64,000 bases of DNA from Arenivirga flava (lineage in GTDB: Bacteria; Actinomycetota; Actinomycetes; Actinomycetales; Microbacteriaceae): assembly GCF_030161575.1 (NCBI RefSeq), contig NZ_BSUL01000001.1, positions 992,001-1,056,000 of the forward strand. Reading direction: 5' to 3'. A program made the position numbers and the translations under genes. Shown here piece by piece: positions 35,765 to 42,494 of the stretch (its first letter is position 1; every line of letters begins with the position of its first letter). A model generated the notes under the pieces. That model did not search any database. It saw only the letters and a program-made list of their open reading frames with translations, and had not been told where the DNA came from.

Positions 35765-37222
35765 TCAGGGCTGCACCGGTTCCGCGGCGACGAGCTCGAC
35801 GGCGTTCAGCGAGGCCGCGGCGCCCTGCTCGACGCGCACGTCGATCCACAGCCGGCCCCGCGCATCCGGCACCAGGTCGCCGATGGCGGCCGTCTCGCGC
35901 CCGGCACCCGGCCCGCCGGTGCGCAGCTGCGCGGCGCCGCCGGATGCGCCGTGGACGACGAGCTCGGCCGTGCTGCCCGGTGCGCCCGGGCTCGCCCCGA
36001 CGACGCGCAGCGCGTACCGGAGCTCGGGGTCGAGCCCCTCCAGTAGGAAGCCGCCGGGCAGGTCGTCGTCACCGCCCGGGCGGTCGTCCGCCGTCGCGAT
36101 CCAGGCGTCGCGCGTCGCGCTGGGCACGGCGAGGTCGCCGAGCGCCGAGCCCGGCGCGGTCGGACCCGCCTCGGCGGCGGTGCTCGCCCGGAAGCCGCCG
36201 GTCACCGTCATCGCGACGCCGGTCATCCGGCCCCCGTCCGTGACGAGCGACCCGCGATGCTCCCCGGCGACGACGTCGCCGCCCGGCGCCGTCGGCCACC
36301 AGTCGTTCCACTGGCGGCCCTCGTCGTCGAGTCCGGTCGGCACGCCGACGACCCCGTCGTCGGCGCCGAGGTCGAGCAGCAACCGCTCCCCGGGGCGCAG
36401 GCCCTGCACCGTCGGACGGGCGGCCTCCGACGGTCCGACCGCGGAGTCCAGCACGGGGAGCAGCACCTCGAGCCAGGCCGCGTAGCCGGCCGGTGTCAGG
36501 TGGATGCCGTCGATCGAGAGCCGGTCGAAGGCGGCGCGATCCGTCGCCGCGAGCTGCTCGAACGGTGTCGCGATGTCGACGTAGTGGACGCCGGGATCGG
36601 CCGCCGCGTCGGCGGCCAGCAGCCGGTTGGCCTCGCGCCGCGCCCGTTCGACGCCGTCGCCGGCGTCGACCGTGGCCGGCGTCGGAGCGATCGCGAGCAC
36701 GAGCACCTGCGCGTCGGGGCGGCCCGCGCGCACCAGGGCGACGAAGTCGCGCACGTCCGCGGCCAGCCGCTCGGGCGAGCCCCCGGCGCGCAGGTCGTTG
36801 AGCCCGGTCCGCAGCACGACGGCGCGCGGTGCGAGCGGGGCCACCAGCCACGGCGACTCGGCGAGGACCTGCCCCATGACGGAGCCGCCCCAGCCGCGCT
36901 GCACCACGTCGTAGTCGGGCAGATCGCGGGAGAGCGACTCCCAGCGGCGGATGCTGGAGCTGCCGATGAAGAGGACCGAGTCGGTACCCGGCGCATCCGC
37001 CCGGTCCTGCTCGACCCAGCGGCGCACCTCGCGGGTGCCGGAGCTCCCGGACGGGTAGGACGGTGCGGCGACGGGCTCCTCCGGCAGGGCCGGCACGGGG
37101 ATGCTCGGTGCGGGCGCCGGCGGCTCGGGCGCACCGGCCATGGCCGCGCCGGCGCCGGCGCCGGCGAAGACGCCCGCCGCGAGCACGCATGCGAGCGCCG
37201 TCGTCCGACGTCGAGCGAGCAC
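35765..37222 (-). CDS. Secreted SGNH/GDSL-family hydrolase with extra C-terminal domain
   Basis: 485 residues with a Sec signal peptide (MLARRRTTALACVLAAGVFAG, cleavage probably near AMA-GAP) and a Pro-rich linker. The hydrolase domain has block I FIGSSSIRRW (nucleophile Ser), block II Gly in RGWGGS, block III RTGLND (Asn) and block V DGIHLTPAGY (Asp and His). The last about 230 residues are a beta-rich domain with a D-x-D-D/G pattern, with no recognised family, perhaps carbohydrate binding. A likely substrate is an acyl ester or acetylated glycan outside the cell. Confidence 0.85.
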   Translation of the reverse strand: MLARRRTTALACVLAAGVFAGAGAGAAMAGAPEPPAPAPSIPVPALPEEPVAAPSYPSGSSGTREVRRWVEQDRADAPGTDSVLFIGSSSIRRWESLSRDLPDYDVVQRGWGGSVMGQVLAESPWLVAPLAPRAVVLRTGLNDLRAGGSPERLAADVRDFVALVRAGRPDAQVLVLAIAPTPATVDAGDGVERARREANRLLAADAAADPGVHYVDIATPFEQLAATDRAAFDRLSIDGIHLTPAGYAAWLEVLLPVLDSAVGPSEAARPTVQGLRPGERLLLDLGADDGVVGVPTGLDDEGRQWNDWWPTAPGGDVVAGEHRGSLVTDGGRMTGVAMTVTGGFRASTAAEAGPTAPGSALGDLAVPSATRDAWIATADDRPGGDDDLPGGFLLEGLDPELRYALRVVGASPGAPGSTAELVVHGASGGAAQLRTGGPGAGRETAAIGDLVPDARGRLWIDVRVEQGAAASLNAVELVAAEPVQP

Positions 37223-37359: not shown

Positions 37360-38289
37360 TCAGAGCCGCAGCGCGAGCGCGTTCGCGGTGAGGCCCGCCG
37401 CCGTGCCGCAGAGCAGCACCGTGCCGCCGGGGCCGATCCGACCCTCCTCGAGCGAGCGGATGAGGGTGTACGGCACCGAGGAGGAGACCATGTTGCCGTA
37501 CTCCGCCACCCGGTCGACGAAGAGCGCCTTCGGGATGCCGATGCGCCGCATCGCGATCCCGAGCGCGCCGCTCGCCTGGTGCGGCACGACGAGGTCGAGG
37601 TCGTCGAGGCCGAGCCCCGCCCGCTCGAAGAAGCGGTCGAAGAACGCCGGCAGCACGGCCAGCATGCTCATCAGCGCCCGCCGGCCCTGCATGTCGAAGA
37701 GGTAGTCGCGCGGGTCGCCCTCGGCGTACGCCTGCGCCGGATGGAGCGAGAGCCCACCGCGCAGCTCGGTGTCGTGCGCGTGCTGCGGCCAGGTCCGCTG
37801 CAGGCTCGCGAGCACGCCCCGCGACCCGTCGCCGCGGGTGAGCACGACGGCGGCCCCCGCATCCGAGAACAGCTCGAAGCTCTCGCGCTGCTCCGGGTCG
37901 AGGAAGCGGCTGCCGACGTCGCCGCTGACGACGAGCACCCGCTCGTAGTCCCCGGCGTCGAGGTAGCGCGAGGCGACGTCGAGCGCCGTGATGAAGCTGG
38001 TGCAGGTCGAGTTGACGTCGAAGGCCGCCGCGGTGGCGTGCGGTGCGACCCGCTCCATGACGAGCGCCGCCGTGCACGGGATCGGCTGCACCCCGGCGGC
38101 GCAGGCGGCGATGACGCAGTCCACGTCGTCCGGGCGCAGGCCCGCGTGCGCGATCGCGCGCTCCGCCGCCTCCGCCAGCAGGTCGAGCTGGCCGCGGTCG
38201 TCCTCGATGCGGTGCCGCGTCTGACGCCCGAAGGCCACGATGCGGCCGGGCAGGCTGGTGCCGTAGCCGGCGATCTCAAGCCGACGCAT
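37360..38289 (-). CDS. 3-oxoacyl-ACP synthase III family protein (FabH/OleA-like)
   Basis: 309-residue thiolase-fold condensing enzyme. The catalytic triad is intact: Cys96 in VNSTCTSF, His237 in VPHQASG and Asn266 in EYGNMVSS. The C-terminal GTAAGLTANALAL matches the glycine-rich end. The N-terminal TSLPGRIVAFGRQTRHRI differs from housekeeping FabH. The position in an operon with an acyl-activating enzyme and a reductase suggests a special acyl condensation. I chose ATG 38289 because AAGGAGG ends 6 nt upstream; the ATG at 38295 has no spacing. It overlaps the preceding gene by 14 nt. Confidence 0.88.
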   Translation of the reverse strand: MRRLEIAGYGTSLPGRIVAFGRQTRHRIEDDRGQLDLLAEAAERAIAHAGLRPDDVDCVIAACAAGVQPIPCTAALVMERVAPHATAAAFDVNSTCTSFITALDVASRYLDAGDYERVLVVSGDVGSRFLDPEQRESFELFSDAGAAVVLTRGDGSRGVLASLQRTWPQHAHDTELRGGLSLHPAQAYAEGDPRDYLFDMQGRRALMSMLAVLPAFFDRFFERAGLGLDDLDLVVPHQASGALGIAMRRIGIPKALFVDRVAEYGNMVSSSVPYTLIRSLEEGRIGPGGTVLLCGTAAGLTANALALRL

Positions 38290-39538
38290 CCGCATCCTCC
38301 TTCCACGCGCGCTCGACGCGCCGCAGCTTGCGGGTCGGATCGGGAGCGTACGCCCCGAAGCGCAGCTCGGGGGCGGGCGCGCCCTGCCGCCGCCAGAGCG
38401 CCTCCAGCCGCTCCCGCACGCCCGCCTCGCCGGCCGGGTCGTCGAGCAGCACCTCGACGCGCTCGGCGCCGGTCTGCACCACGCGCCACTGGCTGAAACC
38501 CTCGGCGTGGATCATCGCGCGAGCCACGAGGTCGGCGAAGACCCGTACGCCGCCCAGCAGCAGCGCATCGTCCTCGCGGCCCTCGATGCGCTCGAGCGCG
38601 GTCAGTACGCTGCCGCAATCGCAGGGCTCCGCGCGCTCGACGAGCAGGTCGTTCAGGCGGTACCGCACGATCGGCTGCGCGACGCGCGAGAAGTCGGTGA
38701 CGATCGGCACGAAGCGGCGCCCCTCGACCGCCTCCCGCTCGAACAGCAGGAGCTCCTCGTTGAGGTGCAGCACGCCGCGATCGCAGGTGCGGGCGAGGAA
38801 GCCCTCGGTGCACTGGTACAGCTGGTGGAGGAACGGCTGCCCGAACGCGGCCTCCAGCCGGCGCGCATCCGCTCGCTCGAGCACCTCCGCGACCGCGTAG
38901 ACGCGCTGCGGTCGCAGCTCGAGGCCGGCCTCGGCGATCGCGAGCAGCACCGACGGGGGCGCCACCAGGATGGTGGGCTCGTAGGCGGCGAGCGAGCGGA
39001 TGCGCTCCCCGAGGTCGCCGTGCACGTCGAAGTACCGGAACTCCACGGCCCGCGAGCGCACGGTGTCGTAGAGCTCGTTGCCGGCGCGCAGGAACAGCGC
39101 GATGCGGTGGTCCAGGATGCGCCCGCGCGGCAGCGTGAGCGCCAGCACCGTGCCGGCCCAGGCATCGCGCTCGGCGGCGCTCACGACGAAGACGCCGCGA
39201 TGACCGCTCGTACCGCTCGAGAGCCCGACGGAGACGCCGTCGAGGGTGCCGCCGAAGTCGCGGCGGCGCTCCGCGTCCGCGGCGAGCGCGACCGCGTCGT
39301 CGAGGGTGACCCCCACCGTGTTCATCGCGTCGAAGTTCGCCATCATCACGGCCTTGTCCATGCGCGGCAGCTCGTCGAGGCGTGCCGGCGCCGCGGCGAA
39401 CCACGGCGAGCGCCGCCGCAGCAGGCGGAGGTGCCGGCGCACGCGTCGCCGCTGGTGGCGCTCGAGCTGCGCCCTGCTACGGAAGCGCCGCAGCCAGCGC
39501 GCGACGACGAAGGCCCGCACGATCCTCAGTCGGCCCAC
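38276..39538 (-). CDS. F390-synthetase/PaaK-related AMP-forming adenylating enzyme
   Basis: 420-residue member of the phenylacetate-CoA ligase/coenzyme F390 synthetase branch of ANL enzymes. The P-loop is LSSGTSGHRG. Later come FLHQLYQCTEGFLA (A5-like motif with Glu), IVRYRLNDLL (A8-like region) and a C-terminal lobe ending RKLRRVERAWKED. It is shorter than OleC-type ligases. It probably activates an acyl acid with ATP. The GTG start overlaps the MBL gene stop by 13 nt and its end overlaps the condensing enzyme, so it is tightly coupled. Confidence 0.85.
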   Translation of the reverse strand: MGRLRIVRAFVVARWLRRFRSRAQLERHQRRRVRRHLRLLRRRSPWFAAAPARLDELPRMDKAVMMANFDAMNTVGVTLDDAVALAADAERRRDFGGTLDGVSVGLSSGTSGHRGVFVVSAAERDAWAGTVLALTLPRGRILDHRIALFLRAGNELYDTVRSRAVEFRYFDVHGDLGERIRSLAAYEPTILVAPPSVLLAIAEAGLELRPQRVYAVAEVLERADARRLEAAFGQPFLHQLYQCTEGFLARTCDRGVLHLNEELLLFEREAVEGRRFVPIVTDFSRVAQPIVRYRLNDLLVERAEPCDCGSVLTALERIEGREDDALLLGGVRVFADLVARAMIHAEGFSQWRVVQTGAERVEVLLDDPAGEAGVRERLEALWRRQGAPAPELRFGAYAPDPTRKLRRVERAWKEDADASA

Positions 39539-40295
39539 AGCAGGTCCACCCCCTCGGGGTGCGGATCGTGGGCGAAGCGCAGCCGCAGCCCGGCGGCCTC
39601 CGCGGCGAGCAGTCGCTGGGCCGTGCGGGCCTGGGCGGCGTGGTCGTGGCCGACGGCGCGGGGCAGGGCGCGCATCCGCTGCTCCTCGCCGAGCAGATCG
39701 CGGCTCCAGGCCGCGTCGCCGGCGAGCAGCACCCTCCCTGCACGAGTACGCCGACGTGCCCGCGGGCGTGCCCGGGCAGGTCGACGAGGCACAGGGAGCC
39801 GTCGCCGAAGAGGTCGTGCGTCGCGAGCCCGTGGTGCTCGTCGTCGAAGCGGTCGACGACGATGCGAGGAGCCGAGTCGAACCACGGCGGCAGGAGCCCG
39901 GGGAGCACGCCCTCCCTCAGCCTCGGCGCCCGGAGGGTCTCCACGAGCCCTGCGCTCAGCACGAACGTCGCGTGCGGGAGGTCGCGCACCCCGCCGAGGT
40001 GGTCGGGGTGCAGGTGGGTGAGCACCACGTGGGTGACCGTCGACGGGTCGACCTGCTCGGCGATGGTCTCGCCGGGGCGGACGCGGGGCGGGAGCAGGAG
40101 GCGGTACGCCCATCCGCTCGCTCCGGTGCCCCAGGAGCGGCCGGCGTACCCCGTGTCGACGAGCACGCGGCGCTCGCCGTCGTCGTAGCGGAACACGCCG
40201 GCGGGGAAGACCCTGCGTTCGCGGGGTGCGCCGCGCAGCAGGGCGCCGACGTCGTGGCTGGTCTCGCCGCAGCGGTGGTAGTGCAGCTCAGGCAT
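39526..40295 (-). CDS. MBL-fold metallo-hydrolase (frameshifted in this sequence)
   Basis: The metallo-beta-lactamase fold motif HLHPDHLGG is intact, with an early VDTGYAG Asp strand and HARGHVG for a metal His. The next metal ligand (LLAGDAAW) and the C-terminal part (VGHDHAAQART, ADPHPEGVDLL-like end) are in another frame after about 39734. Adding one G/C to the plus-strand CCC at 39732-39734 yields a 256-residue protein. Lactonases and thioesterases are common in this family. It lies between the reductase and adenylating genes of the operon and starts inside the end of the reductase gene (8-nt overlap). Confidence 0.83.
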
Positions 40296-41235
40296 AGCTG
40301 GCGAGCCCCTCGTCGAGGCTCACCAGGGGCTCGTAGCCGAGCACCCGCCGGGCGGCGCCGATGTCGAGCGTCTGCGAGAAGGCGATCGACGCGACCGTGT
40401 ACCGGGTGAGCGGCGGCTCGGGGCGCCCGGGCAGGCGGGCGGCGACCGCCTCGAGCGCTCCGGCCGCGGCCAGGACGGGACGGATGGGCAGGTGCCGGTA
40501 CCGGGGAGCGATGCCCATGCCGTCCAGCAGCTGGTCGAGCAGGTGCTTGAATGGGCGCGGGTCGCCGTTCGTGACGTTGAGCACCTCCCCGTCCGCGCCG
40601 GGCGCCTGGAGGGCGAGCCGTGCCGCGCTCGCGACGTTCTCGACCGCGGTGAGGTCGACGAGGTTGCCGCCGCCCCGGAAGAGCGGGATGCCGATCCGCT
40701 CGTGCACCGCGAGCAGGCGCGGCACCAGCGTGCGCTCGCCGCGGCCGATGAGGCCCCTCGGACGCAGGACCACGACCTCCGGCCGGGCGCGCTCGCCCAG
40801 CAGCAGCGCCTCCGCGGCGCGCTTCGAGCGGATGTACCCGTTCATCGCGCGGGCGGGCTGCGGATCGTGCTCGCGGATGCCGATGCGGTCGCGGGCCTCG
40901 GCGTGCACGCTCGGCGAGGAGATGTGCACGATGCGACGGGCGCCGCTGCGCCGGGCGAGTTCGAGCACGTGGCCCGTGCCCTGCACGTTCGTGCGCTCGA
41001 AGTCGCGCCATCGCCCCCACGGGGTGGAGAGCGCGGCGCAGTGCACGATGACGTCGGGGCGCAGGCCGGAGCCGGGCAGCGCGTGCAGGTCGCCGACGAG
41101 ACGGGGCGCATCGGTGGGGAGCATCCGCTCGTCGCGGCCCGCTGCGGTGACCTCGTAGCCGTGCGCGAGCAGCTCCCGGACGACGTGACGACCCAGGAAG
41201 CCGCTCGCGCCGGTGACCAGCGCGTGTTCGCCCAT
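40288..41235 (-). CDS. NAD(P)-dependent epimerase/dehydratase (3-beta-HSD/OleD-like)
   Basis: 315-residue extended short-chain dehydrogenase. The Rossmann turn is VTGASGFLGRH; HCAALSTPW is the active-site entry, SSPSVHAEA the Ser region, and YIRSKRAAE gives the YxxxK pair. It resembles reductases such as OleD or 3-beta-hydroxysteroid dehydrogenases. I start at ATG 41235 because TAGGAT ends 7 nt upstream; 41244 is possible. It is the first gene of a four-gene operon and diverges from a glycosyltransferase. Confidence 0.88.
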   Translation of the reverse strand: MGEHALVTGASGFLGRHVVRELLAHGYEVTAAGRDERMLPTDAPRLVGDLHALPGSGLRPDVIVHCAALSTPWGRWRDFERTNVQGTGHVLELARRSGARRIVHISSPSVHAEARDRIGIREHDPQPARAMNGYIRSKRAAEALLLGERARPEVVVLRPRGLIGRGERTLVPRLLAVHERIGIPLFRGGGNLVDLTAVENVASAARLALQAPGADGEVLNVTNGDPRPFKHLLDQLLDGMGIAPRYRHLPIRPVLAAAGALEAVAARLPGRPEPPLTRYTVASIAFSQTLDIGAARRVLGYEPLVSLDEGLASYA

Positions 41236-41242
41236 GGACCGC

Positions 41243-41248
41243 ATCCTA
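41243..41248 (-). promoter_or_regulatory. -10-like box of the reductase/MBL/ligase/synthase operon
   Basis: TAGGAT, 7 nt before the ATG at 41235. Confidence 0.5.
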
Positions 41249-41266
41249 GGGCGGACCGCCCTCCCC

Positions 41267-41272
41267 TAGGCT
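41267..41272 (+). promoter_or_regulatory. -10-like box of the glycosyltransferase gene
   Basis: TAGGCT, 7 nt before the ATG at 41280. The two divergent boxes are only 18 nt apart. Confidence 0.5.
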
Positions 41273-41279
41273 CGCTGCC

Positions 41280-42494
41280 ATGCGGATCGCCCTGGTGACG
41301 GACTACTGGCTGCCGACGCTCGGCGGCGTGCAGACGGCGGTCAAGGCGCACCGGGAGGCGCTTGAGGCCGCCGGGCACGAGGTGGTCGTCGTGGCGCCGC
41401 TGTTCGAGCGGAGCGCGGACCCCGGCGTCGAGGCGCTGCCGGTCTCGCCGGTGTTCCGCCCCGACGGCTTCCCGTTCGCCTGGCCGCCGCGGCGCATCCG
41501 CGCGCAGCTGCGGGCGTCCTTCGAGCGACGCGGCATCGACGTCGTGCACACCCACTCCGAGATGTTCGCCGCGCTCGGCGCCATCGGGGCGGCGCGCGAT
41601 CTCGGCCTGCCCGTCGTGCACACCATGCACGGTCGCGTCGACGTCTACACCGCCAGCGTGCTGCCGCTGCCGTCGGTCACCACCCGGCTGCTCGCGGCGC
41701 TGCACGCCCGGCACGTGAGCCGCCGCGGCGTCGCGGTGCCCGGCCGCACGCCGTACACGGCCACGGCGACCGCGCGGCGGATGTGGCGGCTCATGGCCGC
41801 GCAGTCCCGGGCCAGCGCGCACGTGATCGTGCCCTCCGCCCACTTCGCCGCCAAGCTCGCCGCTCAGGGTGTGACGACCCCCACGACCGTGCTGTCGAAC
41901 GGCCTCGAGGCCTCGGTGCTCCACCGGGTCGGCGTTCCCGTGGAGCGGAGCCTCGAGCCGGGCGAAGCCCTGCGACTGCTCTGGGTCGGCCGGCTCTCGC
42001 CCGAGAAGCGCCCCGCGGTGCTCGCCGAGGCCGCGCGGTCCTTCGGCCCCGATGTGACCGTCGACGTCTACGGCGAGGGCATGGCCCGCCGTGCCCTCGA
42101 GCGGATGCGCGCCCCCGTCGCCCTGCACGGCGCGGTGCCGCAGGGCGCCGTGCTGGAGGCCATGCGCGGCGCCCATGCCCTGGTCTCCAGCTCGCTCGAC
42201 TTCGACAACCAGCCGATGGTGCTGCTGGAGGCCATCGCGTCCGGGCTGCCGGTGATCCACTGCGATCCGGACCTGGCCGAGATCGTGCCGGCCGGGGGCG
42301 GGTGGCTCGCGCCGACGCCGGACGCCGCGGGGCTGGCGGCGGCGGTCGCGCACCTGCGCAGCGACCCCGCGGCGATCGCCCGCGCGAGCCGCGCGATGCT
42401 CGGGGCGCGCGACGGCGTGGTCCAGCGAGTCGACGGGCTGCTGCGCGTCTACGAAGCGGCGGTCGCGGCCGGGCCGGCGGAGCGCATCCGCTGA
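41280..42494 (+). CDS. GT-B glycosyltransferase, family 4
   Basis: 404 residues. The N-terminal Rossmann half has TDYWLPTLGGVQTAV and HTHSEMFAALGA. The C-terminal half has LLWVGRLSPEKRPAVL, VDVYGEGMARRAL and the donor-binding EX7E-like region around LVSSSLDFDNQPMVLLEAIASGLPVI. This resembles mannosyl- and glucosyltransferases of lipid or cell-wall glycan synthesis, such as PimB-like enzymes. No signal peptide; the acceptor is probably at the inner membrane face. Leaderless-like ATG start. Confidence 0.88.
   Translation: MRIALVTDYWLPTLGGVQTAVKAHREALEAAGHEVVVVAPLFERSADPGVEALPVSPVFRPDGFPFAWPPRRIRAQLRASFERRGIDVVHTHSEMFAALGAIGAARDLGLPVVHTMHGRVDVYTASVLPLPSVTTRLLAALHARHVSRRGVAVPGRTPYTATATARRMWRLMAAQSRASAHVIVPSAHFAAKLAAQGVTTPTTVLSNGLEASVLHRVGVPVERSLEPGEALRLLWVGRLSPEKRPAVLAEAARSFGPDVTVDVYGEGMARRALERMRAPVALHGAVPQGAVLEAMRGAHALVSSSLDFDNQPMVLLEAIASGLPVIHCDPDLAEIVPAGGGWLAPTPDAAGLAAAVAHLRSDPAAIARASRAMLGARDGVVQRVDGLLRVYEAAVAAGPAERIR

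Follow-up and report, generated by a model that had tools for sequence, protein, structure and literature searches.

The locus and its genes

The 64,000-nucleotide stretch of Arenivirga flava contig NZ_BSUL01000001.1 analysed here (positions 992,001 to 1,056,000; hereafter the window) carries at 37360–41235 an operon of four overlapping genes. They encode an extended short-chain dehydrogenase/reductase (SDR), a metallo-β-lactamase-fold hydrolase (MBL), an adenylate-forming ligase and a ketoacyl synthase III (KSIII), and are faced by a divergent glycosyltransferase (GT) gene. This gene set is a cross-phylum cassette rather than a local oddity, and we consider it reasonably likely that it is conserved, horizontally spread and biosynthetic, dedicated to a specialised acyl-derived metabolite. 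The features of the locus are:

40288..41235, minus strand: OleD-related SDR (extended; Pfam Epimerase/3Beta_HSD), with which the operon begins; its ATG start lies beside a TAGGAT leaderless promoter.
39526..40295, minus strand, end at ~39526: lactonase-like MBL hydrolase (Lactamase_B match), frameshifted at ~39733–39737 in the assembly.
38276..39538, minus strand: adenylate-forming ligase of the F390-synthetase-related family TIGR02304 (PaaK superfamily), assigned by profile score and motifs.
37360..38295, minus strand, alternative start 38289: KSIII on the MxnB/CorB side of the family, assigned by profiles, tree and model.
41236..41279, no strand assigned: intergenic region between the divergent genes, with one leaderless promoter for each direction, TAGGAT-N7-ATG on the SDR side and TAGGCT-N7-ATG on the GT side.
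41280..42494, plus strand: GT4 glycosyltransferase (Pfam Glyco_transf_4 / group 1), the divergent fifth member that the cassette has in actinobacteria.

The SDR and MBL frames overlap by 8 nt, the ligase and KSIII frames by 14–20 nt and, when both MBL frames are taken as a single gene, the MBL and ligase by 13 nt. An initial annotation of this DNA had described four overlapping genes forming one operon; the genes, all on the minus strand, and their overlaps were re-found, and its operon start at 41235 is backed by the TAGGAT-N7-ATG arrangement, the same pattern being present in 28 of 28 relatives. The annotation overlooked a break in the MBL frame. At a GGGAGGG run the gene is split over two frames (open at 40295–39477 and 40113–39526), which places the third metal-binding histidine in one frame and the aspartate and last histidine in another.

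The condensing enzyme and its partners

The KSIII retains the Cys98-His239-Asn268 triad that the initial annotation had read as intact, and these residues are conserved in every complete sequence of a set of 81 rows. It reaches 147 bits on TIGR00747 (cut-off 292), while the genome encodes two FabHs above that cut-off (310.8 and 303.8 bits), and 82 bits on PRK09258 as compared to 424–445 for true OleA. In a 51-row tree, the cassette KSIIIs of actinobacteria and Fusobacterium, that of the window among them, form a single clade (support 100). This clade lies in a larger group together with other cassettes and MxnB/CorB (Shimodaira–Hasegawa-like approximate likelihood ratio test 98), apart from FabH (99) and from OleA. 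A grouping with housekeeping FabH, an outcome that would have refuted the initial interpretation, is not observed, and this identity is rejected on the profile score and on the separation of the KSIII from the genome's own two FabHs.

In OleA, a glutamate is essential for condensation (PMC7064751). The corresponding Glu117 column holds Ile, Leu or Met in all 71 cassette KSIIIs (Ile in the window) as opposed to the Glu-Pro of true OleA rows. Moreover, the published OleA signature EPxx[AS]x(14,18)DxxNACL (PMC7158056) occurs in none of the cassette rows, the window included, but in five of six OleA rows. The original likening of the condensing enzyme to OleA is thus not supported. MxnB, which joins two carrier-bound chains (PMC5724707), and CorB have V94 at the position of the catalytic Glu of OleA/PpyS, and their mechanism is unlike that of OleA/PpyS (PMC4578411). 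As judged from its sequence, the KSIII bears the marks of the MxnB/CorB type, namely the Cys-His-Asn triad, the lack of Glu at the OleA position and a FabH-side phylogeny. A further trait of this type is the use of two tunnels to bring two carrier-bound chains together.

The model of the window KSIII (pLDDT 93.3) finds its best structural match in MxnB (Z 42.2), followed by a FabH at 40.8; since both values are close, structure alone does not decide the KSIII type. Further, the actinobacterial and Fusobacterium KSIIIs are devoid of an N-terminal segment of ~17–20 residues (TNxDL...DEWIxxRTGI), which the remaining cassette KSIIIs share with FabH and OleA. In E. coli FabH, this segment carries a tryptophan that stacks on the adenine of CoA; its absence might reflect a carrier-protein substrate in place of CoA, a point on which our model does not rest.

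The SDR scores 171 bits against the OleD profile NF042422 (cut-off 580), conserves YxxxK in all rows, keeps the Rossmann glycines and falls into a clade separate from OleD (99). Homologues of the same order retrieved with NF042422 reach 260–393 bits and no sequence of the order passes 580, so the score alone is weak. The reductase had been called OleD-like, which stands as far as relatedness is concerned, though the clade is a separate one.

In the MBL, the ligands HxHxDH, H, D, and H are conserved in relatives. As the window frame is broken, the protein of a relative (L013) was modelled (pLDDT 93.2). Lactonases make up the top 19 structural matches of this model, with Z-scores of 26.5 to 23.8, and values drop below 17 for β-lactamase and glyoxalase II types. 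The model would give the MBL a fold of the N-acyl homoserine lactonase type with the metal ligands in place. Lactone chemistry, entertained for this enzyme from the beginning, would fit these matches, with thioester hydrolysis as the alternative.

The ligase scores 426.7 bits on TIGR02304, above the cut-off of 251.9, and contains all adenylation motifs (SSGTSGxRG, YQCTEG, RYRLxD and a C-terminal Lys). The protein is therefore a full member of TIGR02304 and not a truncated PaaK, as the earlier wording "short PaaK-like ligase" had implied. No demonstrated function was found for this family ('F390 synthetase-related protein'), which is not named in the open-access papers searched. Four related genomes (G031, G087, G105 and G184) carry GT-SDR-MBL-KSIII at 57–78% identity with no ligase in between, and a TIGR02304 member was not found elsewhere in these genomes either. 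Since these relatives keep the rest of the cassette, the ligase is dispensable: it is missing from four of the six cassette-bearing family genomes, whereas the MBL is retained in all four. The proposal that the MBL replaces OleB is weakened, as the MBL is constant core while the OleC-like ligase is not.

Distribution, linkage and the actinobacterial form

Species genomes were scanned with the ligase only, and plasmid matches were added, which yielded 70 loci. All four families are found together in 60 of these, mostly abutting and in one direction, and several of the exceptions run into contig ends; the 60 loci are not independent events, as some come from closely related genomes, a dozen Pectobacterium-type loci among them. 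Co-occurrence of the four families is far above chance, which answers the neighbourhood comparison suggested with the initial annotation. The cassette extends over at least eight bacterial phyla, including Actinomycetota (Microbacterium, Ruania, Occultella, Propioniciclava, Demequina), Pseudomonadota (Pectobacterium, Serratia, Cupriavidus, Massilia and others), Bacillota (Paenibacillus, Pontibacillus plasmids), Cyanobacteriota, Bdellovibrionota and Bacteroidota, one Fusobacterium and one Vulcanimicrobiota metagenome-assembled genome. Annotated records list the same products side by side. All five cassette genes of the window show dN/dS values of 0.11–0.31 relative to the sister genome (G072), indicative of purifying selection, and the KSIII and SDR trees broadly agree. 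The cassette probably represents a real pathway.

In actinobacteria, the GT gene faces SDR-MBL-ligase-KSIII, an order found in exactly this form at 24 loci. A TAnnnT box is located 5–9 nt before the start codon on both sides in 28 of 28 loci as well as in the window, compared to a background of 0.73% of all ATG/GTG in the window. Among 199 family genomes, those encoding the GT (E up to 1e-60) and those with the cassette are the same six, and three more contain an SDR of the cassette kind without the GT; these counts are not corrected for phylogeny. Based on the paired leaderless promoters and the shared six genomes, the GT4 is part of the cassette in actinobacteria, in line with the earlier suggestion that the divergent glycosyltransferase may act on the product of the operon. 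At three further loci (L113–L115 in G045, G170 and G116), an SDR and MBL of the actinobacterial type stand with a different, divergently placed KSIII and with neither ligase nor GT. A record of Fusobacterium vincentii (L076) shows the actinobacterial gene order and a KSIII with shortened N-terminus that is 46% identical to the one in the window, which suggests transfer between phyla.

Outside actinobacteria, the partners of the cassette are ATP-grasp, GNAT-like, Rieske, fatty acid hydroxylase and desaturase genes, which fit a tailoring of the acyl product. They are lineage-specific: a fatty acid hydroxylase and desaturases accompany the cassette in enterobacteria (L059 and other Pectobacterium-type loci), ATP-grasp and GNAT genes in Paenibacillus and cyanobacteria, and a Rieske oxygenase in Oxalobacteraceae and cyanobacteria (examples L074 and L039).

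In the Arenivirga genus, the cassette is located between ispG and a GDSL hydrolase gene (35765–37222; 68% identical in the sister genome), which in turn adjoins proS. Both the GDSL gene and the cassette are absent at the empty site of another genome (G002, L141), where ispG lies 52 bp from proS.

Proposed pathway and comparison with known systems

We favour, with moderate confidence, a KSIII-SDR-MBL-(ligase)-GT pathway, for which the families, catalytic residues (except those of the window MBL), linkage, co-inheritance and promoter motifs are observed, and the individual reactions, their order, the substrates and the product are proposed. The actinobacterial cassette is organised as a divergon with the GT4 facing SDR-MBL-(ligase)-KSIII. 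The KSIII would use a FabH/MxnB-type mechanism, and not the Glu-dependent one of OleA, to join two activated acyl units, giving a β-keto acyl or β,δ-diketo/pyrone-type product, or a lactone. The OleD-like SDR would then reduce a keto group and the lactonase-type MBL may hydrolyse a lactone or thioester to a hydroxy acid. Where present, the ligase could adenylate this acid and so activate it for the formation of an ester, amide or lactone, and in actinobacteria the GT4 might finally glycosylate the product.

Several observations weigh against this pathway. The operon contains no carrier protein gene, its MBL frame is interrupted in the assembly, and the link to the GT is restricted to actinobacteria. 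A ligase-dependent route is not universal given its absence in the four related genomes, and the KSIII-MxnB grouping comes from a quickly computed tree in which some branches are long and some forks are left open.

The same enzymes might instead make a lactone- or pyrone-type signal or antibiotic, which we regard as improbable but worth considering. The KSIII would join an acyl and a β-ketoacyl chain in the manner of MxnB to a pyrone or δ-lactone, the SDR would reduce it and the MBL would open it, either as maturation or for self-protection and turnover. MxnB being the best structural match and a tree neighbour of the KSIII speaks for this route, as do the nearest MBL folds, all lactonases. 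However, no polyketide synthase (PKS) or second chain source adjoins the cassette, the triad is equally compatible with FabH-type decarboxylative use of malonyl-ACP, and the structural ranking is close.

An ole-type pathway appears unlikely. It would combine an OleA-like non-decarboxylative head-to-head condensation with reduction as by OleD, the ligase acting as OleC to form a β-lactone and the MBL acting on this β-lactone in OleB's place. The relatedness of the SDR to OleD, the adenylate-forming nature of the ligase and the lactonase-like MBL agree with it. Yet the KSIII has neither the Glu nor the signature of OleA, scores far below true OleA on PRK09258 and groups elsewhere; the ligase is not an OleC, and four relatives lack it while retaining the other genes. 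True OleA-OleD pairs are found separately in the same order. Together, the Glu column, the signature, the tree and the scores lead us to reject membership in the ole systems.

There is also little chance that the operon is broken or degenerating in this strain and that only a relic is seen here. The frameshift in the window MBL is what such decay would leave behind, but the MBL is in frame in every relative tested, including the sister genome, so the break is confined to the window. Further, the downstream half shares 93% identity with the sister genome, with a dN/dS of 0.11. Within ~25 kb, two more frame breaks relative to the sister genome (at ~54820 and ~58190 of the window) point to indel errors in the assembly, which is 93% complete in 5 contigs. 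Taken together, the intact relatives, the additional frameshifts and the state of the assembly indicate that the MBL break is probably, if not provably, an assembly indel. A spare FabH for housekeeping fatty-acid primer supply among neighbours of unrelated function is highly improbable: the KSIII fold and triad would suit it, but only the genome's two FabHs exceed the TIGR00747 cut-off, and the KSIII forms a separate clade, is patchy in the family and has fixed partners across phyla.

Beyond the KSIII-SDR-MBL-(ligase)-GT pathway of the window, the cassette may tentatively be seen as a widespread, undescribed class of pathways in at least eight phyla. A fixed core of MxnB-side KSIII, OleD-like reductase and lactonase-type MBL would be joined by lineage-specific ligase, GT, ATP-grasp, hydroxylase and desaturase genes to provide lipids or signals derived from lactones or hydroxyacyl chains. 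No description of the gene set or its product was found in the open-access literature, and one may exist elsewhere, most subscription journals being outside the search; the cassette is apparently an undescribed variant of acyl-condensing pathways, and, in agreement with the initial annotation, no defined pathway with this set was found in the papers searched. A fixed gene set without assigned product in this many phyla is a ready target for metabolite discovery, broad and testable. The pathway would assign a role to the TIGR02304 ligases, whose sole annotation is 'F390 synthetase-related'. It would be unusual for a biosynthetic cassette to have a lactonase-fold enzyme as a fixed member, and the ligase-free relatives provide a natural experiment on the contribution of the ligase.

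Among known systems, the ole clusters (OleA, OleB/OleBC, OleC, OleD) for long-chain olefins and β-lactones (PMC7158056, PMC7064751) likewise have operons in which a thiolase-superfamily condensing enzyme is encoded together with an adenylate-forming ligase and an OleD-related SDR. The resemblance without a match that was noted initially is confirmed, as the cassette is ole-like in outline but fails in the Glu, signature, clade and gene content. In contrast to the ole clusters, its KSIII is without the OleA Glu and signature, its ligase belongs to TIGR02304 in the PaaK superfamily and is dispensable, and a lactonase-like MBL is a core member; neither OleC nor an OleB-type α/β hydrolase is encoded in the operon. 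A glycosyltransferase is also present in one OleA-C-D cluster without OleB, in a region of A. atraurantiacus (PMC7064751). Three loci in the same family as the window (L116–L118 in G026, G093 and G154) combine a TIGR02304 ligase, an OleD-like SDR and a ketoacyl synthase with the OleA EP motif, and contain no MBL; this is an ole-like combination in which a PaaK-type ligase takes the position of OleC.

MxnB and CorB of myxopyronin and corallopyronin biosynthesis (PMC5724707, PMC4578411) share with the KSIII the triad and the lack of Glu at the OleA position, and are its tree neighbours and best structural match. They serve type I PKS lines, none of which adjoins the cassette, and MxnB has the N-terminal segment that the actinobacterial and Fusobacterium KSIIIs are devoid of. 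With N-acyl homoserine lactonases and 4-pyridoxolactonase, the top structural matches of its model, the MBL shares the fold and the dinuclear metal ligands. Identity to these enzymes is low (17–25%) and far below NCBIfam cut-offs, and the MBL is located in a biosynthetic operon rather than in a quorum-quenching or catabolic one.

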